The position numbers and the translations under genes are program-made. Positions 10,640-59,328 of a stretch of 64,000 nt of DNA are shown here, piece after piece. The stretch comes from Dethiobacter alkaliphilus. Its GTDB lineage: Bacteria; Bacillota; Dethiobacteria; DTU022; UBA8154. The DNA is taken from the NCBI GenBank assembly GCA_016841605.1, contig JAENYV010000001.1:493056-557055 (forward strand), given 5' to 3'. The stretch's first letter is position 1; each line of letters starts with the position of its first letter. The notes below the pieces were generated by a model. The model was given only the letters and a program-made list of their open reading frames with translations. It was not told where the DNA came from and did not search any database.

Positions 10640-12502
10640 ATGAAAAAACCGGAAATAGAGCAAGACCGGGAAGCTAACAGGGATTATTATAAACAAATAG
10701 CTAAAAAAACCGAAGAGCTTTTGAAAGCCGAACAAAATTTTTCCTCCGCTATTCTGGATACCGTGGGTAGCCTGGTGACTGTTTTAACTTCCCGGGGTGA
10801 AATTATGAGGATAAATCAAGCCTGCAGGCAGGTAACAGGTTTTGTATCCGAAGAGGTGGAAGGAAAGTTTTACTGGGACGTGTTTATTCCCGCCGAAGAA
10901 GTCGAACTGGAAAAGGCATTTTTTGAGGCACTTCAACCCGAACATTTCCCCTTAGAGTTTGAGAATCAGTGGGTGATGAAAAACGGGACCGTGCGGGATT
11001 TCTTGTGGTCCGATACGGCAATGCCGGGTAAAGACGGTGCTGTGCAATACCTGATCAGCAGCGGGGTCGATATTACAGAAAGAAAAAAAACTGAAGAGAC
11101 TCTCAGGGAAGCCAATGAAAAACTGCGCGCGCTCATTCACGCATCTCCTCTGGCTGTCATTTCGCTGGATTCCGCCGGCCGGATTACCAGTTGGAGCAGC
11201 GCCTCGGAGCGTATTTTCGGGTGGACGGAGAAAGAGGTTTTGGGAACATTTCCCCCCATGATCCCGGAAGACCAGCGGGAAGCATTTGAAACTTTGCGCA
11301 GGGATACCTTCCAGGGGAGGTCTTTTACGGCGATGCAAACACGCTATTTAAAAAAGGATGCTCTTCCTGTTGATCTCAGTTTATCAACGGCCCCTCTGCG
11401 CAACAGAGGGGGGCTGGTTCAAGGTATTATGCTGCTTGCCCAGGATATTAGCGAGCATAAAAAAGCAGAAGAAAAGATTAAATATTTAAGCTTTCATGAC
11501 AAACTGACAGGTCTATATAACCGGGCTTATTTCGAGGAGGAGCTAAAGAGGCTGAATACGGAAAGGCAGCTTCCCCTTAGCATTATTATGGGGGATGTCA
11601 ATGGATTGAAATTGGTTAATGATGCTTTTGGTCACAAAGAAGGTGATAGTTTATTAAAAGCAATTGCCGCTATTTTAAAAGATTCCTTTCGCAAAGAGGA
11701 TATCGTTTCCCGTTGGGGTGGAGATGAATTTGCTGTTCTTTTGCCGAAAACACCGTATAAAGTAGCGTTGAAACTGGTGGGGCGGGTAAAAAAAGCCTGC
11801 CGAAATGTTGACTGTACTCCCATTCATTTAAATATTGCCCTCGGTGCCGCTACCAGGGAAAGTCTTTCTCAGGAAATCGAAGAGGTGATCAAAAAAGCGG
11901 AAGCAGAAATGTATTTTAATAAGATGTTGGAGGCAAAAGGTTTCCGTATTTCTACGATTGCTTCACTTTTGCACACTCTGGGAGAAAAATGTTTTGAGAC
12001 GGAAGAACATGTCTGGCGAATGCAAAAGCTGGCGGCAGAGATGGGTGCTGCCCTGCAGTTGAATGATACCCAGATCGACAACTTGAGTTTGGCCGTGGCA
12101 ATGCATGATATCGGTAAAATAACCCTTCCCGAAAAAATTCTTTTAAAACCGGGACACCTTACGCAGCAGGAATGGCTTAATATTAAGAAACATCCCGAAA
12201 GAGGTTACCATATAGCCCTTTCTTCTTTGGAACTGGCTTTTTTGGCGCCTATTATTCTAGCTCATCATGAACGCTGGGACGGCAAGGGATATCCACAGGG
12301 ATTGCAAGGGGAAGAGATTCCGCTGTTGTCCCGTATTATTGCCGTTATTGATGCTTATGACGTTATGACGAATGAACAGATTTATAAGAAGGCGATTAGT
12401 TCGGAGGAGGCGCTTGCAGAAATAGAGAGATGTGCCGGGAGTCAATTTGATCCCAAACTGGCAAAAATTTTTATTAATGTTGTTGCGGGTGGAGGGAAAT
12501 AA
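10640..12502 (+). CDS. PAS-PAS-GGDEF-HD-GYP cyclic-di-GMP turnover protein
   Basis: A 620-aa soluble signalling protein. A PAS domain spans about residues 35-150, ending in the PAC-like SSGVDITERKK. A second PAS spans about 158-278 (LLAQDISEHKKAEEK). The GGDEF domain spans about 285-445 with the intact motif RWGGDEFAVLLP near 356-367. The HD-GYP domain follows, with MHDIGK near 488 and HHERWDGKGYPQGL near 542. Both the diguanylate cyclase and phosphodiesterase active sites look intact. No transmembrane segment is present, so it senses an internal ligand. AGAAGGAGG precedes the ATG; its stop shares bases with the ATG of the next HD-GYP gene, indicating a two-gene operon. Confidence 0.92.
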   Translation: MKKPEIEQDREANRDYYKQIAKKTEELLKAEQNFSSAILDTVGSLVTVLTSRGEIMRINQACRQVTGFVSEEVEGKFYWDVFIPAEEVELEKAFFEALQPEHFPLEFENQWVMKNGTVRDFLWSDTAMPGKDGAVQYLISSGVDITERKKTEETLREANEKLRALIHASPLAVISLDSAGRITSWSSASERIFGWTEKEVLGTFPPMIPEDQREAFETLRRDTFQGRSFTAMQTRYLKKDALPVDLSLSTAPLRNRGGLVQGIMLLAQDISEHKKAEEKIKYLSFHDKLTGLYNRAYFEEELKRLNTERQLPLSIIMGDVNGLKLVNDAFGHKEGDSLLKAIAAILKDSFRKEDIVSRWGGDEFAVLLPKTPYKVALKLVGRVKKACRNVDCTPIHLNIALGAATRESLSQEIEEVIKKAEAEMYFNKMLEAKGFRISTIASLLHTLGEKCFETEEHVWRMQKLAAEMGAALQLNDTQIDNLSLAVAMHDIGKITLPEKILLKPGHLTQQEWLNIKKHPERGYHIALSSLELAFLAPIILAHHERWDGKGYPQGLQGEEIPLLSRIIAVIDAYDVMTNEQIYKKAISSEEALAEIERCAGSQFDPKLAKIFINVVAGGGK

Positions 12503-13587
12503 TGCGCAGAATTTCCATTGAACAGATTCAACCCGGTTTAATTCTGGCCAAGGCGGTTTTCGGTTCCAAGGGCCAGTTGTTGTTAAATGCCGGTGTAGAA
12601 ATCAAAACTCAATATATCTACTACTTGAAGAAATTGGGAATAAATTATCTTTATGTCCGGGACGACAGACTGGAAGGGGTCCAGGTCGAAGATGTAATTA
12701 CGGAAGAGACAAGAATGGAAGCCCGTTCCCTGGTAAGGGAGATCATGAGCGACGGTGAGAGCAAATTTAAAAAGCAAAAATCTTTGCTCCTGTATGATGA
12801 GAAGATCATTCACTACATCACTAAAATTATCGATGAACTTTTAGCCAATAAGGATATTGTTGTCAACCTCATGGATATTAAGGCAGCCGGTGATTATATA
12901 TTTGCCCATTGTGTCAATACCTGTGTCCTGGCTACTTTAACAGCAACCAAACTGGGATTTAAAAGGCCCCGTCTGGTTAACCTGGCTACCGGCGCGCTTC
13001 TCCACGATGTGGGTAATGTGGCCGTTCCTCCGGAAATCCTCAACAAACAATCCTCTTTAACCGGGGATGAGTACGAAATGATTAAAAAGCATCCCCTTTA
13101 CGGTTATGAAATATTTAAAAAAAGCTCCCTTTTTTCTGCTGCTGCCGGGGCTGTTATTTACCAGCACCATGAGAGACAGAACGGACAGGGTTATCCCCAG
13201 GGATTAAAAGGGGGAAAAATTAATCTTCCGGCCCAGATTGTTTCGGTTGCAGACGTTTACGATGCGCTTACCTCGGACAGGCCGTATCGTAAAGCGTACC
13301 TGTCTTACCAGGCGGTTGAGATGCTTTCGGCCTTTGGGCAGGAATATTTCGATCTTGAGGTTTTGAAGGCTTTCCTCTCTTTTGTGGCTGCATATCCCAT
13401 CGGTACCCATGTTTTTCTCAGCAACGGCGAGAGCGGTCCGGTGATAGGCAATACTCCCGGTTTTCCTCTCCATCCGGTTATTAAGGTCATGTATTCCGGT
13501 GAAAGTTTGGCCCTGCATCCCAACCCTTACGAACTGGACCTCACCGAAACTCTCAATCTGTCTATTGTCAAGGTAATTGAGGATTAA
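12502..13587 (+). CDS. HD-GYP domain protein, probable c-di-GMP phosphodiesterase
   Basis: 361 aa. Residues 1-125 form an N-terminal region of the kind often found before stand-alone HD-GYP domains (RRISIEQIQPGLILAKAVFG). The catalytic domain spans about 130-300, with LLHDVGN near 172 and HHERQNGQGYPQGL near 225. The usual HDIGK is HDVGN here, so the Lys is replaced by Asn; the HD pair itself is kept. The first base of its ATG is inside the preceding GGDEF/HD-GYP gene, so the two proteins are probably made together and act on the same pool. Confidence 0.88.
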   Translation: MRRISIEQIQPGLILAKAVFGSKGQLLLNAGVEIKTQYIYYLKKLGINYLYVRDDRLEGVQVEDVITEETRMEARSLVREIMSDGESKFKKQKSLLLYDEKIIHYITKIIDELLANKDIVVNLMDIKAAGDYIFAHCVNTCVLATLTATKLGFKRPRLVNLATGALLHDVGNVAVPPEILNKQSSLTGDEYEMIKKHPLYGYEIFKKSSLFSAAAGAVIYQHHERQNGQGYPQGLKGGKINLPAQIVSVADVYDALTSDRPYRKAYLSYQAVEMLSAFGQEYFDLEVLKAFLSFVAAYPIGTHVFLSNGESGPVIGNTPGFPLHPVIKVMYSGESLALHPNPYELDLTETLNLSIVKVIED

Positions 13588-16025: not shown

Positions 16026-16181
16026 TTAATCGTTTTTTTCATCATCAGTTTTACAGGAAAAACCGGCAAAATTTCCACATGTAAAAAGAGAATAGAGTAT
16101 TTCTCCACAATTGGGGCACTCAGTTACAAAGGTCTCGGGTGATTGAAAAGTGTATCCACATCTGCAAACCCATTTAACCAT
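16026..16181 (-). CDS. Small zinc-ribbon protein, 51 aa
   Basis: Starts MVKWVCRCGYTF, has CRCG at residues 6-9 and CPNCG at 22-26, so four cysteines in CxC...CxxC spacing form a likely zinc ribbon. Two more Cys occur at 35 and 43. A GGGAGAGAAAC ribosome site precedes the ATG. It begins 14 bp after the GGDEF/HD-GYP gene, so it is probably the last gene of the agr operon. Rubredoxin-like short proteins of this type have no assigned function. Confidence 0.7.
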   Translation of the reverse strand: MVKWVCRCGYTFQSPETFVTECPNCGEILYSLFTCGNFAGFSCKTDDEKND

Positions 16182-16195
16182 GTTTCTCTCCCTTT

Positions 16196-17896
16196 TTAAA
16201 AGTATTCCAGTAAGGAAAATGTTCTACGGGATGAGGTCAGGGCTTCTATAAAGGCTTCGACAACTTGCGGGTCGTACTGCAGTCCCCGGCAGCGGCCAAT
16301 TTCCTCCAGAGCTTCTTCACTGGATAGGGCTCTGCGATAAGGCCTGTTGGTCGTCATGGCGTCAAAACTGTCTACAACCCGTAGAATCCGTGCAAATAAA
16401 GGAATATTTTCTCCTTTCAGTCCATGCGGATAACCTGAACCGTCATAATTTTCATGGTGGTGCATAATCATAGAAATGACAGGTTGAAGTGTTTTGATCG
16501 GCTTCAGAATCTCCGCTCCCCATACGGGATGCCGGCGTACAAAGTCCCATTCAGTTTTCGAAAGGGGACCTGTTTTGTTTAAGACCTCCCGGGGAACTTC
16601 CAGTTTTCCCACGTCATGCAAAAAAGCGCCATACTCTAGAAGCCGCAGTTCCTCCAAGCTGAGCCCCATTTTTTCTCCCACTTTTCCGGCATAATGGGCA
16701 ACCCTTTCGGAGTGGCCGTACGTATATCTATCCCTGGCGTTAATAATAGTCATCAGTGTTCGCAGAGACTGGATCATCCCCAGGTCATTTTTCTTGGCCG
16801 AGCGGCTCAGGCGTTCCAGGACCGCGAGATAACAGCGCACTTTGTTGCGGCCTGTCCATTTGCTGCTGTAGAGGGCTTCATCAGCAACATCCAGCAGTTC
16901 CTGGAGATTTCTGGCGTGGTCGGGGAGGGTGGCGACTCCAGCGGAAACCGTCAGTTTTTCAAAGGGCTGGTCTGCTTCCCCGGGAAAAGTATGTTTTGCC
17001 ACGGCCTGGTGCAGCTTCCGGGCGATATCTGCTGCTTCTTTTAGCTCGAAAGCCGGGAGGATGACCGCGAACTCCTCGCCTCCGTAGCGGGCCAAAAAAG
17101 CTCCCGCAGGGATATTCTCCTGCAAAAGGGCTCCAATTTCACGCAGGACCCGGTCTCCCTGTTGGTGTCCGTAGGTATTGTTGTAGCGTTTAAAGAAATC
17201 AATATCAACGAGGATCAGGGAAAGGGGCCGCTTATTTGTTAAGGCCGTCTCAACCTCTTTTTTTAACTTTTCGTGAAAGCAGCGGTGATTGGCCAGCCCT
17301 GTCAGGCTGTCTTCATGGACCATTTGGGCCAGTCCTGCTGTTGTGTTTTTTTCGATCTCGATTATACCCCCTAAAAACCAGGCTGCCAAAAAAAAGATCC
17401 CGCCGAAGACCAGGGGCAGGTCAATGCTCTGCCCCTGGTCGGTTGGCGGAAAAATTCCGGTTAACGCCACAAGGCAGCCTGTGGCGGCCGCGGCAAAGGC
17501 CATTCCCCAGACGCGGCCCAAGGTAAGGCAAGAAAGGACCACAGGCAGCAGGAAGAGACCGCTCAGAGAGAGGTCTCTTCCGTTTCTCACAAAAACCAGT
17601 ACAATCAGCAGGAAAAGGGCCAGGTGCTTGGCTGTATTCCAGATGATCACGGAACGCTCCCTGCTATCGCGATGCAGGAAATGAACATCCAGGAGGATAA
17701 AAGCGGCTGCTGGGATAAGGACGCTAATAAATTTTACTGTAGTGATATAGAGATTACTGGCATATAAAGTAAAAGCATATAAACGCTCATTACAAAGAAA
17801 GATAACAACAGCGATCAAGTAGGCCATAACATGTGCACCCAACGTTAAATCAGCCAGTTTTACTTTTCTCTCCTGCTGCCATGCCTGCATCCCCAC
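16196..17896 (-). CDS. Six-TM sensor GGDEF/HD-GYP cyclic-di-GMP enzyme in the agr operon
   Basis: 566 aa. Residues about 18-185 contain six predicted membrane helices (first ones near 22-42 and 50-70) with short loops, forming a membrane sensor module rather than a periplasmic domain. The GGDEF domain follows (about 190-360) with DSLTGLANHRCF and RYGGEEFAVILP near 270. The HD-GYP domain (about 375-555) has FLHDVGK near 423 and HHHENYDGSGYPHGL near 475, both intact. Thus it may both make and break c-di-GMP. AAGGAG lies 7 bases before the ATG. It starts only 18 bp after the agrD stop, so peptide and enzyme are very likely co-transcribed. Confidence 0.9.
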   Translation of the reverse strand: MGMQAWQQERKVKLADLTLGAHVMAYLIAVVIFLCNERLYAFTLYASNLYITTVKFISVLIPAAAFILLDVHFLHRDSRERSVIIWNTAKHLALFLLIVLVFVRNGRDLSLSGLFLLPVVLSCLTLGRVWGMAFAAAATGCLVALTGIFPPTDQGQSIDLPLVFGGIFFLAAWFLGGIIEIEKNTTAGLAQMVHEDSLTGLANHRCFHEKLKKEVETALTNKRPLSLILVDIDFFKRYNNTYGHQQGDRVLREIGALLQENIPAGAFLARYGGEEFAVILPAFELKEAADIARKLHQAVAKHTFPGEADQPFEKLTVSAGVATLPDHARNLQELLDVADEALYSSKWTGRNKVRCYLAVLERLSRSAKKNDLGMIQSLRTLMTIINARDRYTYGHSERVAHYAGKVGEKMGLSLEELRLLEYGAFLHDVGKLEVPREVLNKTGPLSKTEWDFVRRHPVWGAEILKPIKTLQPVISMIMHHHENYDGSGYPHGLKGENIPLFARILRVVDSFDAMTTNRPYRRALSSEEALEEIGRCRGLQYDPQVVEAFIEALTSSRRTFSLLEYF

Positions 17897-17914
17897 AACT
17901 CCTTCAAGGTTTAC

Positions 17915-18049
17915 TTATTCTCCCCGCAGTTTGGCCGGTACTTCCGGTTCGTAATACATAACTGTACATGCAGATGCGGCTCCCGTACTGGCGATTATGG
18001 TAAGCATCACTACCGCGGCACCGGCCAGCCACACAAAGATTTTTTTCAT
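17915..18049 (-). CDS. agrD: AgrD-type cyclic lactone autoinducer pre-peptide, 44 aa
   Basis: This short gene encodes a 44-residue peptide: MKKIF then an amphipathic/hydrophobic leader, then ASACTVMYYEPEVPAKLRGE. A Cys followed a few residues later by a (D/E)PEVP-type tail is the signature of AgrD precursors, in which AgrB removes the C-terminal tail and a thiolactone ring is formed from the Cys. The ring would start at Cys28; the C-terminal residue of the mature peptide is probably Tyr32 or Tyr33 (inference). The GGAGGTG ribosome site lies 7 bp before the ATG and 6 bp separate it from agrB. Confidence 0.88.
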   Translation of the reverse strand: MKKIFVWLAGAAVVMLTIIASTGAASACTVMYYEPEVPAKLRGE

Positions 18050-18055
18050 CTCATT

Positions 18056-18694
18056 TCACCTCCTTCCTTTAAAAGTAATTATAAAAAATTGGCATAGCTT
18101 ATCAAATTTATCCACCAGCAGAATGCCAGGGGGGGTGATCATCAGCGCTGCTGAGGCCAGCCCGCCCCCTCCAGCAGCAGCCATACCCTGCAACAGTTCA
18201 CTGTTGTTCAAGGAGAGAAGGAGAAGGCCCAGACCCAGGAACAGTTCCATCCCCAGGGCCCGATCGCGCAATAATCTGCGCCGGGATGGATCCCTTACAG
18301 GTTTTTTGCTGTTGTTCGGCGCCCACCTCCAGGTAGCCCAGAGCGCCCAGGCGACGGTTATTGCTATCCATAGGTGGATTGGCACAAACGCGGTTGCCCC
18401 GCGGGAAAGCAGCACCACTGCCAGCGCTGTGAGGCAGCTTCCTACTGTACAGCGCCAGAGGGTGGAGCAGTGGGCTCCCCCGGCAAAACGGCGGATTAAC
18501 CACCAGCTGATCAGCACGGCCGCGGTTTCCGGCAGAAACCCCAGCAAAAAAGCGGCCAAGAGAGTTATTACAACTCCTGCAACAGCGGAGAGAAGGTATT
18601 CCAGCCCGTAGGCCACCACTTCCGTATCTTCCGCATTGAGGTCCCTTGCTTGTCCCAACTTTTGGGCGATCCCCTCTCCCAGATATTTTTTCAT
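18056..18694 (-). CDS. agrB: AgrB-type peptide-processing membrane protease
   Basis: 212 aa from the preferred start. AgrB is a membrane cysteine protease that trims AgrD. The catalytic pattern RRFAGGAHCSTLWRCTVGS is present, with the conserved His and, eight residues on, the Cys. Five or more hydrophobic segments follow. A longer reading frame extends to 18733, but the ATG at 18694 is preferred: it is coupled to the stop of the upstream gene (TGATG) and begins MKKYLGEG, as usual for the family. It sits immediately upstream of agrD. Confidence 0.9.
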   Translation of the reverse strand: MKKYLGEGIAQKLGQARDLNAEDTEVVAYGLEYLLSAVAGVVITLLAAFLLGFLPETAAVLISWWLIRRFAGGAHCSTLWRCTVGSCLTALAVVLLSRGATAFVPIHLWIAITVAWALWATWRWAPNNSKKPVRDPSRRRLLRDRALGMELFLGLGLLLLSLNNSELLQGMAAAGGGGLASAALMITPPGILLVDKFDKLCQFFIITFKGRR

Positions 18695-19173
18695 CAGACA
18701 TCTTTCCCCAGGTTGCGTCGTCTGCGCTGCCATTTGTCTATCAGCAGGGCCAGAAGAAGCAGCAGGATAATCTGTGGCCAGCCTCCGACAATATAGACAA
18801 AAACATTCCCAGCAAGCTGTTCATAGGAGAGCCCTGTTAAATAGAGAATCAGAGAAAAAACAACAGTTTCAGCGGCGGCAAGGGTAATTACAACAATGAG
18901 CGCGGATAGCAGGCTCCGGCTAAAGCGGACTTTTATGAAAAAATGAAGGAGAAGCGCTAATGCAAACATGGAGAGAATGGAATGCACCCCAAAGGTGAGG
19001 GGCAACAGGCGTACGGCGTATAAGAACACTGCCTGTATTATGCCCAGAGGGGCTATTTTGCGTATTTCCAGTTTTTCCCCAACCAGTGCCAGCGCCAGTG
19101 TGATATTAGCCAGGCATTCCGGTATACCTTGCAGCAGCCATTGAAGAATCGGGAGTTCCATAAAATTAATCAC
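18694..19173 (-). CDS. Membrane protein resembling an AgrC sensor domain without a kinase
   Basis: 159 aa with about five hydrophobic helices and a basic tail (DKWQRRRR). It begins MINFMELPILQWLLQGIPE and looks like the N-terminal transmembrane module of clostridial agr-locus sensor kinases, but no HisKA or HATPase domain follows; the stop is a clean TGA coupled to the agrB ATG. It may be a peptide receptor or partner for the GGDEF/HD-GYP protein, or an unrelated accessory protein. It is the first gene of the operon; no agrA-like LytTR gene is nearby. Confidence 0.7.
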   Translation of the reverse strand: MINFMELPILQWLLQGIPECLANITLALALVGEKLEIRKIAPLGIIQAVFLYAVRLLPLTFGVHSILSMFALALLLHFFIKVRFSRSLLSALIVVITLAAAETVVFSLILYLTGLSYEQLAGNVFVYIVGGWPQIILLLLLALLIDKWQRRRRNLGKDV

Positions 19174-19236
19174 TCCATTTTATCAGAAGTTTTGCTGTTA
19201 TTTAACCTTCTTCGACATGAAATTGGATAATCCTTC

Positions 19237-19280
19237 CTAAACTAATAAAAATTTTAAAGTTTAGAAAATTTTTTTTACAA
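19237..19280 (-). promoter_or_regulatory. Promoter of the agr operon with inverted repeat
   Basis: On the minus strand TTGTAA (19280-19275) and TAAAAT (19256-19251) are separated by 18 bp, 80 bp upstream of the first gene. An inverted repeat CTAAAC/GTTTAG (19237-19242 and 19259-19264) brackets the -10 and could be an operator. Confidence 0.45.
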
Positions 19281-19323: not shown

Positions 19324-19352
19324 AAAAAAAAGTTGTCCCCGACGGGACAACT
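19324..19352 (-). terminator. Rho-independent terminator of the DUF4321 gene
   Basis: Perfect 9-bp stem AGTTGTCCC/GGGACAACT (19331-19352) followed, on the minus strand, by seven T residues (19330-19324). Confidence 0.9.
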
Positions 19353-19378
19353 TAAAAAATGTTTAGAGCCTGGGTATA

Positions 19379-56993: not shown

Positions 56994-59328
56994 AAATTAG
57001 AATAGAAAATGGGTTGCCACTTGTCGAGGCAGTGTTGGTACATAACAACAATAGGCTCTTACTAGAAAATGTATTGGTAGATACGGGATCAGCATCTACA
57101 CTAATTTCTGCAGAGGATGCCATTAACTTAAATCTAAAACCGGAACCATGGGATACAATTAGAAGCATGGTGCGAGCTGTGAACACAGCGAGCAAAGAGC
57201 CCGCGAGTGTTCCACTTGACGCTGCTAATAGCTAGCGTCATTTGTAAGCTTATGAAATATAGCAGGAAAATCCTGTACGGTAAAGTCTAACCAACAGCCG
57301 TTACCGAGTCCTTGGAGCCGAAGCGGCAACGCCAAGCTTAAGCGTAGGACAGGGAGCCAACCGAGCCGAAAGCGTCAGCTGAAGTGATTGAGCCACGAAA
57401 TAATTGTAGAGTTAAAGAGGCCGATGCCGTCATGTTGGTAGCAGGCAGTACTGTGCAAACGTTTTGGTGAGTGAAGCACAGCTCTTTCGGGGTCTGAGAA
57501 CTTGGCGAGGGTGGATGAGAAATATTTCATGAGAACAGCTGAGGTCCTGTATGCTCTGGGCAGTCCCCAGTATGACAACGAACCTGGACAACAGGGGAGG
57601 ACATCAAACGGCATACAGGAAGTCCGATCAGTCCATAGTACCGTAGAAACCTGTGAAAGCAGGCAGAGGGAAGGGGCTGACATATCATAGCCCTAGGCAA
57701 TGAAGGTTGACTCAGACAGGAGCTGAAGCAAGTTGATAGCTGCATTGCATAGGATAAAAGAATGTGTAGAGAGGGCTGGAGGGGCAAAGGCTCAAAATCT
57801 GGCAAGTGCCATCAACGGAAAGACGCTATCGTCCGCCCATAAACTTATGGAAGGAAGGAAAGCGGTCGGGACTGATGGAATTAGCAAAGAGGAGTATGGA
57901 GCCGAACTCGACAAAAATCTAAGCAATCTGGTTTCCAGGATGAAAAGGGAAGCCTACAAACCGAAGCCCTCAAGAAGAGTGTACATAGACAAACCAGGCA
58001 GCAACGAGAAGCGGCCGCTGGGGATATCATCCTACGAGGATAAGCTTGTAGAGAAAGTTGTTGCAGAGCTACTTGAAATTGTCTATGAGCCGAAGTTTTG
58101 TAATGTCTCGTTTGGGTTTAGGCCGAAGCGGAACTGCCACCAAGCAATCAGAGAAGTGATAGAAGATATCCAATACCGTAAGACTAATTATGTGGTAGAA
58201 GCCGATATCAAATCGTTCTTTGATACGCTGGACCATGACTGGTTGGTGAAATTTCTGGAGCATGACATTGCGGACAGAAAATTTATCGGGATCATCAAAA
58301 GATTTCTAAAGGCCGGAATCATGGAGAACGGAAAGACAATACTGAAAGAAGAAGGCAGTCCGCAGGGAAATGGAGCATCACCGATTTTAGCAAATATATA
58401 TCTGCACTATGTCCTCGACGTATGGTTTGAGAAATCCTTCAAAAAAGGGTGTAAAGGCCAAGCATACCTTATCAGGTATTGTGACGACTTTGTCTGTTGT
58501 TTTCAATATAGGGAAGATGCAGAGAGGTTTTATTCGGAACTGATTACCAGATTTGAAAAGTATAACCTTGAACTGGCCCCAGAAAAGACGAAGGTATTGG
58601 AATTTGGACGGTTTACAAAAGAGAACCGGAAAAGAAGGGGACTGGGTAAACCGAGACGTTCAATTTTCTAGGCTTTACACTATTCTGTAGTGAAGATAGC
58701 AGAAAAGGCTTCTTTCGCGTCAAGGTAAAGACCGATAGGAAGAAAATGATAAGTAAGCTCAAGAAACTGAATGAATGGCTTAAATCCCATAGGCACCTTG
58801 CGATAAAAGACATTATCAGAAGGGTCAACCAATCGCTTACAGGACACTACCACTACTATGGGGTCACTGATAACAGAAGAAGTCTGGAACGTTTTCGACA
58901 TATGGTGGTAGCACTCCTTTACAAATGGTTGAACCGCAGAAGTCAAAGGAAGAGCTACAACTGGGAAAGCTACAGCAATGGACTTCTTATCATATTACCT
59001 ATCGTGCAACCTAAGACATATGTCAGCCTATTCTACAGATGATTGAATTATGATATGGGGAGCCGTATGCCTTAATAGGGCACGTACGGTTCTGATGAGG
59101 GTTGCGATTGGTGACAGCCGCAATCTACTCAAGAGGGGTATTGGTGGAAGTGAATATGTGTATGAAAAGCAGGTTGATAGTATAAAACTTGGTCATTTAG
59201 TCGTTACCAAGTTTAGAATTCAAATTGGTGCTATGAATTATGGTTTTAAAATAAGGGCGATCATAGGCACTGATTTTTTTTTAGACTCGCAAGCTATCAT
59301 TGATATGAAAGAAATGCGAATTTATTAA
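56990..59328 (+). CDS. Retropepsin-like aspartic protease, copy 2, interrupted by a group II intron
   Basis: Exon 1 is 56990-57169, exon 2 about 59134-59328. Exon 1 carries LVDTGSASTLISAEDA (active-site Asp-Thr-Gly); exon 2 carries RGIGGSEYVYEKQVDSIKLG and AIIGTDFFLDSQAIIDMKE. Joined at a codon boundary they give an unbroken 124-aa protein colinear with the 127-aa copy 1, including the IGG segment across the junction. Without splicing the protein stops inside the intron. The 85-aa partner is directly upstream. Confidence 0.85.
57170..59133 (+). mobile_element. Group II intron inserted in the retropepsin gene
   Basis: The 5' end GTGCGAGCTGTGAACACAGC at 57170 matches the bacterial GUGYG start. 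A domain V hairpin (GAGCCGTATGC to GCACGTACGGTTC, 59060-59092) and a domain VI stem-bulge (GGTTGCG..CGCAA, ending CTACTC near 59130) follow the reverse-transcriptase gene. The exact 3' end is uncertain within a few bases; a codon-phase end at 59133 restores the host frame. Intron orientation equals that of the host gene, so splicing would repair it. The non-coding 57236-57732 is intron domain I to IV RNA. Confidence 0.88.
57733..59042 (+). pseudogene. ltrA: Group II intron reverse transcriptase/maturase with frameshift
   Basis: RT domain residues 1-300 are complete up to 58650: GTDGISKEEYG, RPLGISSYEDKLVEKVV, FGFRPKRNCHQAI, EADIKSFFDTLDHDWL, EGSPQGNGASPILANIYL and the catalytic YCDDF (in place of YADD). 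The first frame then ends at 58669-58671. The sequence continues in another frame through ETFNFLGF to the maturase domain (SLTGHYHYYGVTDN) and ends at 59042. A one-base loss near 58650 explains it (KPETFNFLG split). Either the intron is immobile or the shift is programmed or a sequencing error. Confidence 0.85.

Follow-up and report, generated by a model that had tools for sequence, protein, structure and literature searches.

A five-gene operon on the minus strand of the Dethiobacter alkaliphilus DNA analysed here (64,000 nucleotides of contig JAENYV010000001.1, positions 493,056 to 557,055, hereafter the window) probably encodes an agr-type quorum-sensing system with a two-part receptor, a sensor subunit with five transmembrane (TM) helices together with a 6-TM enzyme, the output of which is cyclic di-GMP (c-di-GMP) without involvement of a kinase or response regulator. 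Read from 19173 to 16026, its genes encode the 5-TM protein, AgrB, AgrD, an enzyme in which a 6-TM domain is followed by GGDEF and HD-GYP domains, and a zinc ribbon protein. Genes for a kinase or a response regulator are lacking both within the operon and next to it. A preliminary description of this DNA had AgrC and AgrA both missing from it, which holds for AgrA (the only two LytTR matches genome-wide are elsewhere, on contigs C33 and C20) and, with the GHKL domain being absent, for the kinase half of AgrC, but not for the AgrC sensor half, which is there as the 5-TM gene.

In the mechanism envisaged AgrB would cut and cyclise AgrD to yield a small thiolactone peptide, the ring of which is probably CTVMY. 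The 5-TM subunit, paired within the membrane to the enzyme's 6-TM domain, would sense this peptide on the outer side, and peptide binding would alter enzyme activity through the helix entering GGDEF. Cell density or confinement would thereby set c-di-GMP with neither kinase nor response regulator, and it is in this sense that we infer a link from peptide to c-di-GMP.

A detached AgrC-type sensor

The 5-TM gene (18694 to 19161, minus strand) encodes 155 amino acids (aa) from its likely ATG, or 159 aa when counted from a GTG at 19173, and a Pfam search with its product gave no match. A sensor profile, A1, built from 21 of its homologues was matched in 147 of the 398 genomes of the phylum, with many of the matches being N-terminal in open frames of 440-500 aa. 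All nine of the long frames fetched (L085-L093) consist of the sensor domain and a GHKL kinase, several of them adjoin AgrB, AgrD and a LytTR regulator, and by their domain content these proteins are full AgrC-type receptors; at the N-terminus of GHKL proteins of 434-477 aa the profile scores 4e-30 to 1e-24. Because its family forms the N-terminus of AgrC-type GHKL kinases, the 5-TM protein is, by homology, a detached AgrC-type sensor domain, and one whose output partner has been swapped several times.

Elsewhere, as in L017, L020, L095 and many other loci, the sensor is a separate gene followed by one for a GHKL kinase of 280-300 aa, the N-terminus of which could accommodate about two helices, and the 155 aa of the sensor plus the 285 aa of a split 2-TM kinase amount to the length of the fused kinase. 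A fusion of sensor and GGDEF/HD-GYP enzyme in one chain was not seen among the open-frame lengths, all the long frames fetched being kinase fusions.

The AlphaFold2 model of the sensor (pLDDT 92.8) has five long helices. A fold search with it against the PDB gave a best E of 1.6, with no counterpart among solved structures, and sequence searches of the PDB gave no match for AgrB or for the sensor family. Against viral folds nothing was significant, the best being a phage protein (E 0.014, TM 0.68). That protein, BFVD A0A8S5PKY4 from Siphoviridae sp. ctOSJ35, has a fold resembling the sensor model and is possibly a phage-borne peptide sensor. Separately, some loci have tandem sensor genes in two or three copies (L012:4868-6040, L043:3824-4924 and L101:3309-4834), which may serve several peptides or form a heteromer.

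Conservation of the operon and exchange of outputs

When the genome contigs were searched for AgrB, nine relatives were obtained, six of which (L012-L016 and L019) keep the order AgrB, AgrD, 6-TM GGDEF/HD-GYP enzyme. The 5-TM gene is in front in five of the six, with the contig of L019 starting inside agrB. Further relatives with the arrangement include L043, L044, L045 and L047, and the order sensor, AgrB, AgrD, enzyme is held in relatives down to ~33% enzyme identity.

A census across the phylum comprised 91 stand-alone sensor loci, with flanks of ~5 kb where contigs allowed. As agrB and/or agrD is nearby in 85 of the 91, the notion that the 5-TM protein is just an unknown protein, or its relatives TM-biased matches to the profile, was rejected. 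A 6-TM GGDEF enzyme is encoded in 29 of the loci (27 genomes, 20 families), usually no more than 140 bp after agrD, and in 28 of these HD-GYP is on the same open frame as GGDEF. The conservation in relatives of the agrD to GGDEF/HD-GYP adjacency, to which the preliminary description had looked, thus extends far beyond the genus, and with 20 families represented the operon being a product of chance or annotation was also rejected.

What of the other loci? A kinase is present in 45 of the 91, mostly of the split GHKL type, and in nine loci the 6-TM domain is on PAS/GAF-HisKA-HATPase kinases, some of them with a receiver (as judged with Pfam). Eight lack an output under the set of hidden Markov models (HMMs) used, a class that is largely an artefact of that limited HMM set: all four of those checked with Pfam adjoin a PAS-HisKA kinase. 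In none of the 91 does the enzyme co-occur with a separate GHKL-type kinase. When 127 sensor domains were placed on a quick tree (with a single support value), the output labels were clustered, the enzyme label needing 14 changes of which at least six are forced by well-supported branches, and so the output partner has probably been exchanged repeatedly.

The enzyme as the putative output

The enzyme gene (16196 to 17890, minus strand) encodes 564 aa, its longest open reading frame (ORF) extending to 17896 (566 aa). Pfam matches are to GGDEF (2.4e-46) and HD_5 (4.4e-43), and in an AlphaFold2 model six N-terminal helices are present, the sixth of which leads directly into GGDEF. With these helices and the Pfam and TIGR matches, the operon of agrBD with a six-TM GGDEF/HD-GYP gene that was first described is real. 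The diguanylate cyclase active-site motif is present in the window enzyme as GGEEF and, as read from the sequence, the RxxD inhibitory site is lacking, with PAGA being at the equivalent place. The phosphodiesterase motifs HDVGK and HHENYDGSGYP are intact.

All of the 41 enzymes compared have intact HD-GYP motifs (HD-x-GK and HHE..(D/N)G.G(Y/F)P), against 28 with an intact GG(D/E)EF, which suggests that the conserved activity, and hence the direction of the output, is probably breakdown of c-di-GMP by the HD-GYP phosphodiesterase. Since GGDEF is apparently intact in the window copy, it may also synthesise c-di-GMP and so toggle between synthesis and breakdown. Readers of c-di-GMP in the genome comprise three c-di-GMP-I riboswitches and two PilZ proteins; an Rfam scan of the window found no c-di-GMP riboswitch near the operon. 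Two of the loci, L013 (776-2836) and L052 (1472-3742), have a second, divergent GGDEF/HD-type gene pointing away from the sensor gene.

The 6-TM domain (17337 to 17890, minus strand) is a conserved partner module of the sensor. Its match to 6TM_PilS is weak and below cut-off. Nine of its ten best matches, itself included, are in agr loci, with the tenth at a contig end, and the same domain occurs on the PAS/HisKA kinases of sister loci. In L046 and L050 sensor and enzyme are adjacent on one strand with agrBD on the opposite strand pointing away, and the window's own genome has a second pair, on C19 (L042:5222-7971), in which a 157-aa sensor accompanies a 761-aa 6TM-GGDEF-HD-GYP-MEDS enzyme with no agrBD nearby. 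These pairs, and the nine agr-locus matches, suggest that sensor and enzyme genes travel together, as is expected of the halves of a receptor. The lack of a nearby agrBD also raises the thought that the C19 pair is an orphan or eavesdropping receptor.

AgrB, AgrD and the predicted signal

AgrB, the membrane protease and cyclase of the signal peptide (18056 to 18694, minus strand; 212 aa, longest ORF 18056-18733), matches PF04647 at 1.7e-30 and 106 bits (cut-off 23), and is the sole intact AgrB in the whole genome. The AgrD precursor (17915 to 18049, minus strand) matches TIGR04223 with 36.1 bits (cut-off 19; 5e-9) and reads ...ASAC-TVMY-YEPEVPAKLRGE, with the cysteine, or alternatively serine, and the conserved acidic and proline-containing tail characteristic of AgrD. 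The predicted thiolactone ring, Cys-Thr-Val-Met-Tyr, is followed by the recognition tail YEPEVPAKLR, its boundary being set by comparison with other AgrDs; besides an alignment of 16 AgrDs, the pattern C-x4-[YH]-[QE]-P supports the assignment. The ring residue is Cys in 25 of 27 readable precursors from enzyme loci, whereas in 27 of 40 from kinase loci it is Ser, giving a lactone (loci L095-L189). Judged by this residue the chemistry of the signal differs between the output classes, with shared ancestry contributing.

Which protein is the receptor?

The kinship of the 159-aa protein with the AgrC-type sensor favours it, together with the enzyme's helices, as the receptor, in preference to the helices alone. 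Several considerations weigh against such a two-part receptor acting on c-di-GMP. The homologues from which the sensor profile was built are mostly enzyme-linked. Homology to the sensor of S. aureus AgrC itself is indirect: the NCBIfam staphylococcal AgrC model NF046015 aligns over most of its length to six fused kinases, from residue 27-88 onwards, but it scores far below cut-off and is perhaps driven by the kinase part. The 6-TM domain could sense another cue, and unlinked GHKL kinases are present in the genome, on C20 and C13.

The last two of these points come together in an unlikely alternative, that the 5-TM subunit passes the peptide signal to an unlinked kinase with the enzyme merely being co-transcribed and its 6-TM domain responding to something else. 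The search of the genome for agrC and agrA that the preliminary description proposed did yield candidates, though none that obviously matches the window peptide. Besides a LytTR regulator, C20 has GHKL kinases, two of them full-length and others partial, but the kinases have a different N-terminus with no match to the sensor profile. C13 has an intact 283-aa 2-TM GHKL kinase in what is a decayed second agr locus (L009:5379-6873), where an N-terminal fragment of AgrB is followed by a C-terminal fragment of the sensor; the kinase there is left with no intact local sensor, and the locus has its own, different, AgrD-like peptide with CCAGWFYEP. Besides, the pairing of sensor and enzyme persists when agrBD relocates or is lost, and the sampled loci do not combine the enzyme with a separate GHKL-type kinase. 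As the genome is larger than those of the sampled relatives and its estimated contamination is 2.77%, a foreign contig in the assembly is possible.

It is rather improbable that the enzyme's six helices by themselves bind the peptide, with the 5-TM protein assisting AgrB in export or processing. The sensor gene does mostly abut agrB, and the 6-TM domain, too, is a module dedicated to agr loci. However, in AgrC-type proteins the 5-TM domain forms a single chain with a GHKL kinase, as a sensor would, the partner kinase in split loci has space for only some two helices, and the sensor-enzyme pair survives without agrBD in L042. An action of the peptide in trans on the C19 pair, or on both pairs with the window enzyme being one of two receptors, is very doubtful indeed, for though the C19 sensor is intact and the pair lacks an agrBD of its own, that sensor is only ~20% identical to the window sensor and its nearest kin (L046 and L050) have their own divergent agrBD.

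Gene starts and neighbouring features

Between the longest ORFs the spacing is an overlap and then 6, 18 and 14 bp, as first described along with the gene order; comparison with homologues favours later starts, with the likely start codons being ATG at 19161 for the sensor, at 18694 for AgrB and at 17890 for the enzyme. With these the sensor stop and the AgrB start overlap as TGATG. An intrinsic-terminator-like hairpin (19330 to 19353, minus strand; a 10-bp stem and T run) after the upstream DUF4321 gene sets that gene apart from the agr operon. A weak sigma-70-like promoter candidate, TTGTAA-18-TAAAAT, is at 19251 to 19280 on the minus strand and has 9 of 12 consensus positions; promoter-like sites in the region are no more numerous than in the shuffle range, and it is a candidate only. 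The last gene (16026 to 16181, minus strand) encodes an accessory 51-aa zinc-ribbon protein with paired cysteines visible in the sequence. Among the loci compared its homologue is kept only in the nearest relative, L012, and a role for it as a core part of the operon was rejected.

Near the operon, on the plus strand at 10640-13587 of the window, a PAS-PAS-GGDEF-HD-GYP gene overlaps another HD-GYP gene. Further away (57267-59133, plus strand) are domains of group II intron RNA (matches to Rfam RF02005 and RF00029).

Relation to known systems

With the Staphylococcus type of agr (AgrBDCA) the operon shares AgrB, AgrD and a membrane sensor homologous to AgrC-type GHKL kinases of the same phylum, but the sensor is a separate 5-TM subunit, there is no kinase and no AgrA, and the effector would be the 6-TM GGDEF/HD-GYP enzyme. 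Signal-making genes without linked agrCA are already known in C. difficile agr1 (PMC3754575); to these the window operon adds a candidate receptor and effector. A tie of agr to c-di-GMP turnover is also known for the complete agr locus of C. difficile, where AgrA influences c-di-GMP genes, but there it is indirect, through AgrC/AgrA and transcription (PMC3754575). A C. thermocellum AgrD (PMC5322536) was considered as an earlier case and rejected, there being no linked agr genes.

Only two quorum receptors, RpfR (for BDSF) and a dCACHE cyclase (for AI-2), are listed with direct evidence in a 2022 census of c-di-GMP sensing (PMC8846402). With both RpfR (PMC6361424) and the AI-2-binding dCACHE diguanylate cyclase (PMC7584622) a c-di-GMP enzyme is the direct target of the quorum signal, but the signal is a fatty acid or AI-2 and the receptors are single-chain PAS or CACHE proteins; unlike what is proposed here, no peptide, AgrC-type sensor or two-subunit receptor is involved. 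RpfC/RpfG, which responds to DSF, shares quorum output through an HD-GYP phosphodiesterase, but by a phosphorelay from a kinase, and the window operon has none. A 2026 quorum review has sensing of autoinducing peptides proceeding through AgrC (PMC13220807). In the open-licence literature, a scope exclusive of subscription papers and preprints, neither a split AgrC nor a combination of agrBD with a GGDEF/HD-GYP gene was found to be described.

Implications

It is fairly likely that agr is a modular platform with a detachable sensor and swappable outputs (2-TM GHKL, 6-TM PAS/HisKA/REC and 6-TM GGDEF/HD-GYP), of which AgrC is the fused special case, and that in one widespread branch a membrane receptor of two subunits lets a cyclic peptide control c-di-GMP directly. 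Neither of the direct quorum signals of the 2022 census (PMC8846402) is a peptide. If true, such control of a GGDEF/HD-GYP enzyme by a cyclic peptide would link, in a single step, the main Gram-positive class of signal with the main second messenger of bacteria. A confidently modelled receptor unit of 155 aa would provide a handle on peptide recognition by AgrC-type proteins, and the detached sensor would be nature's own kit for the swapping of outputs.

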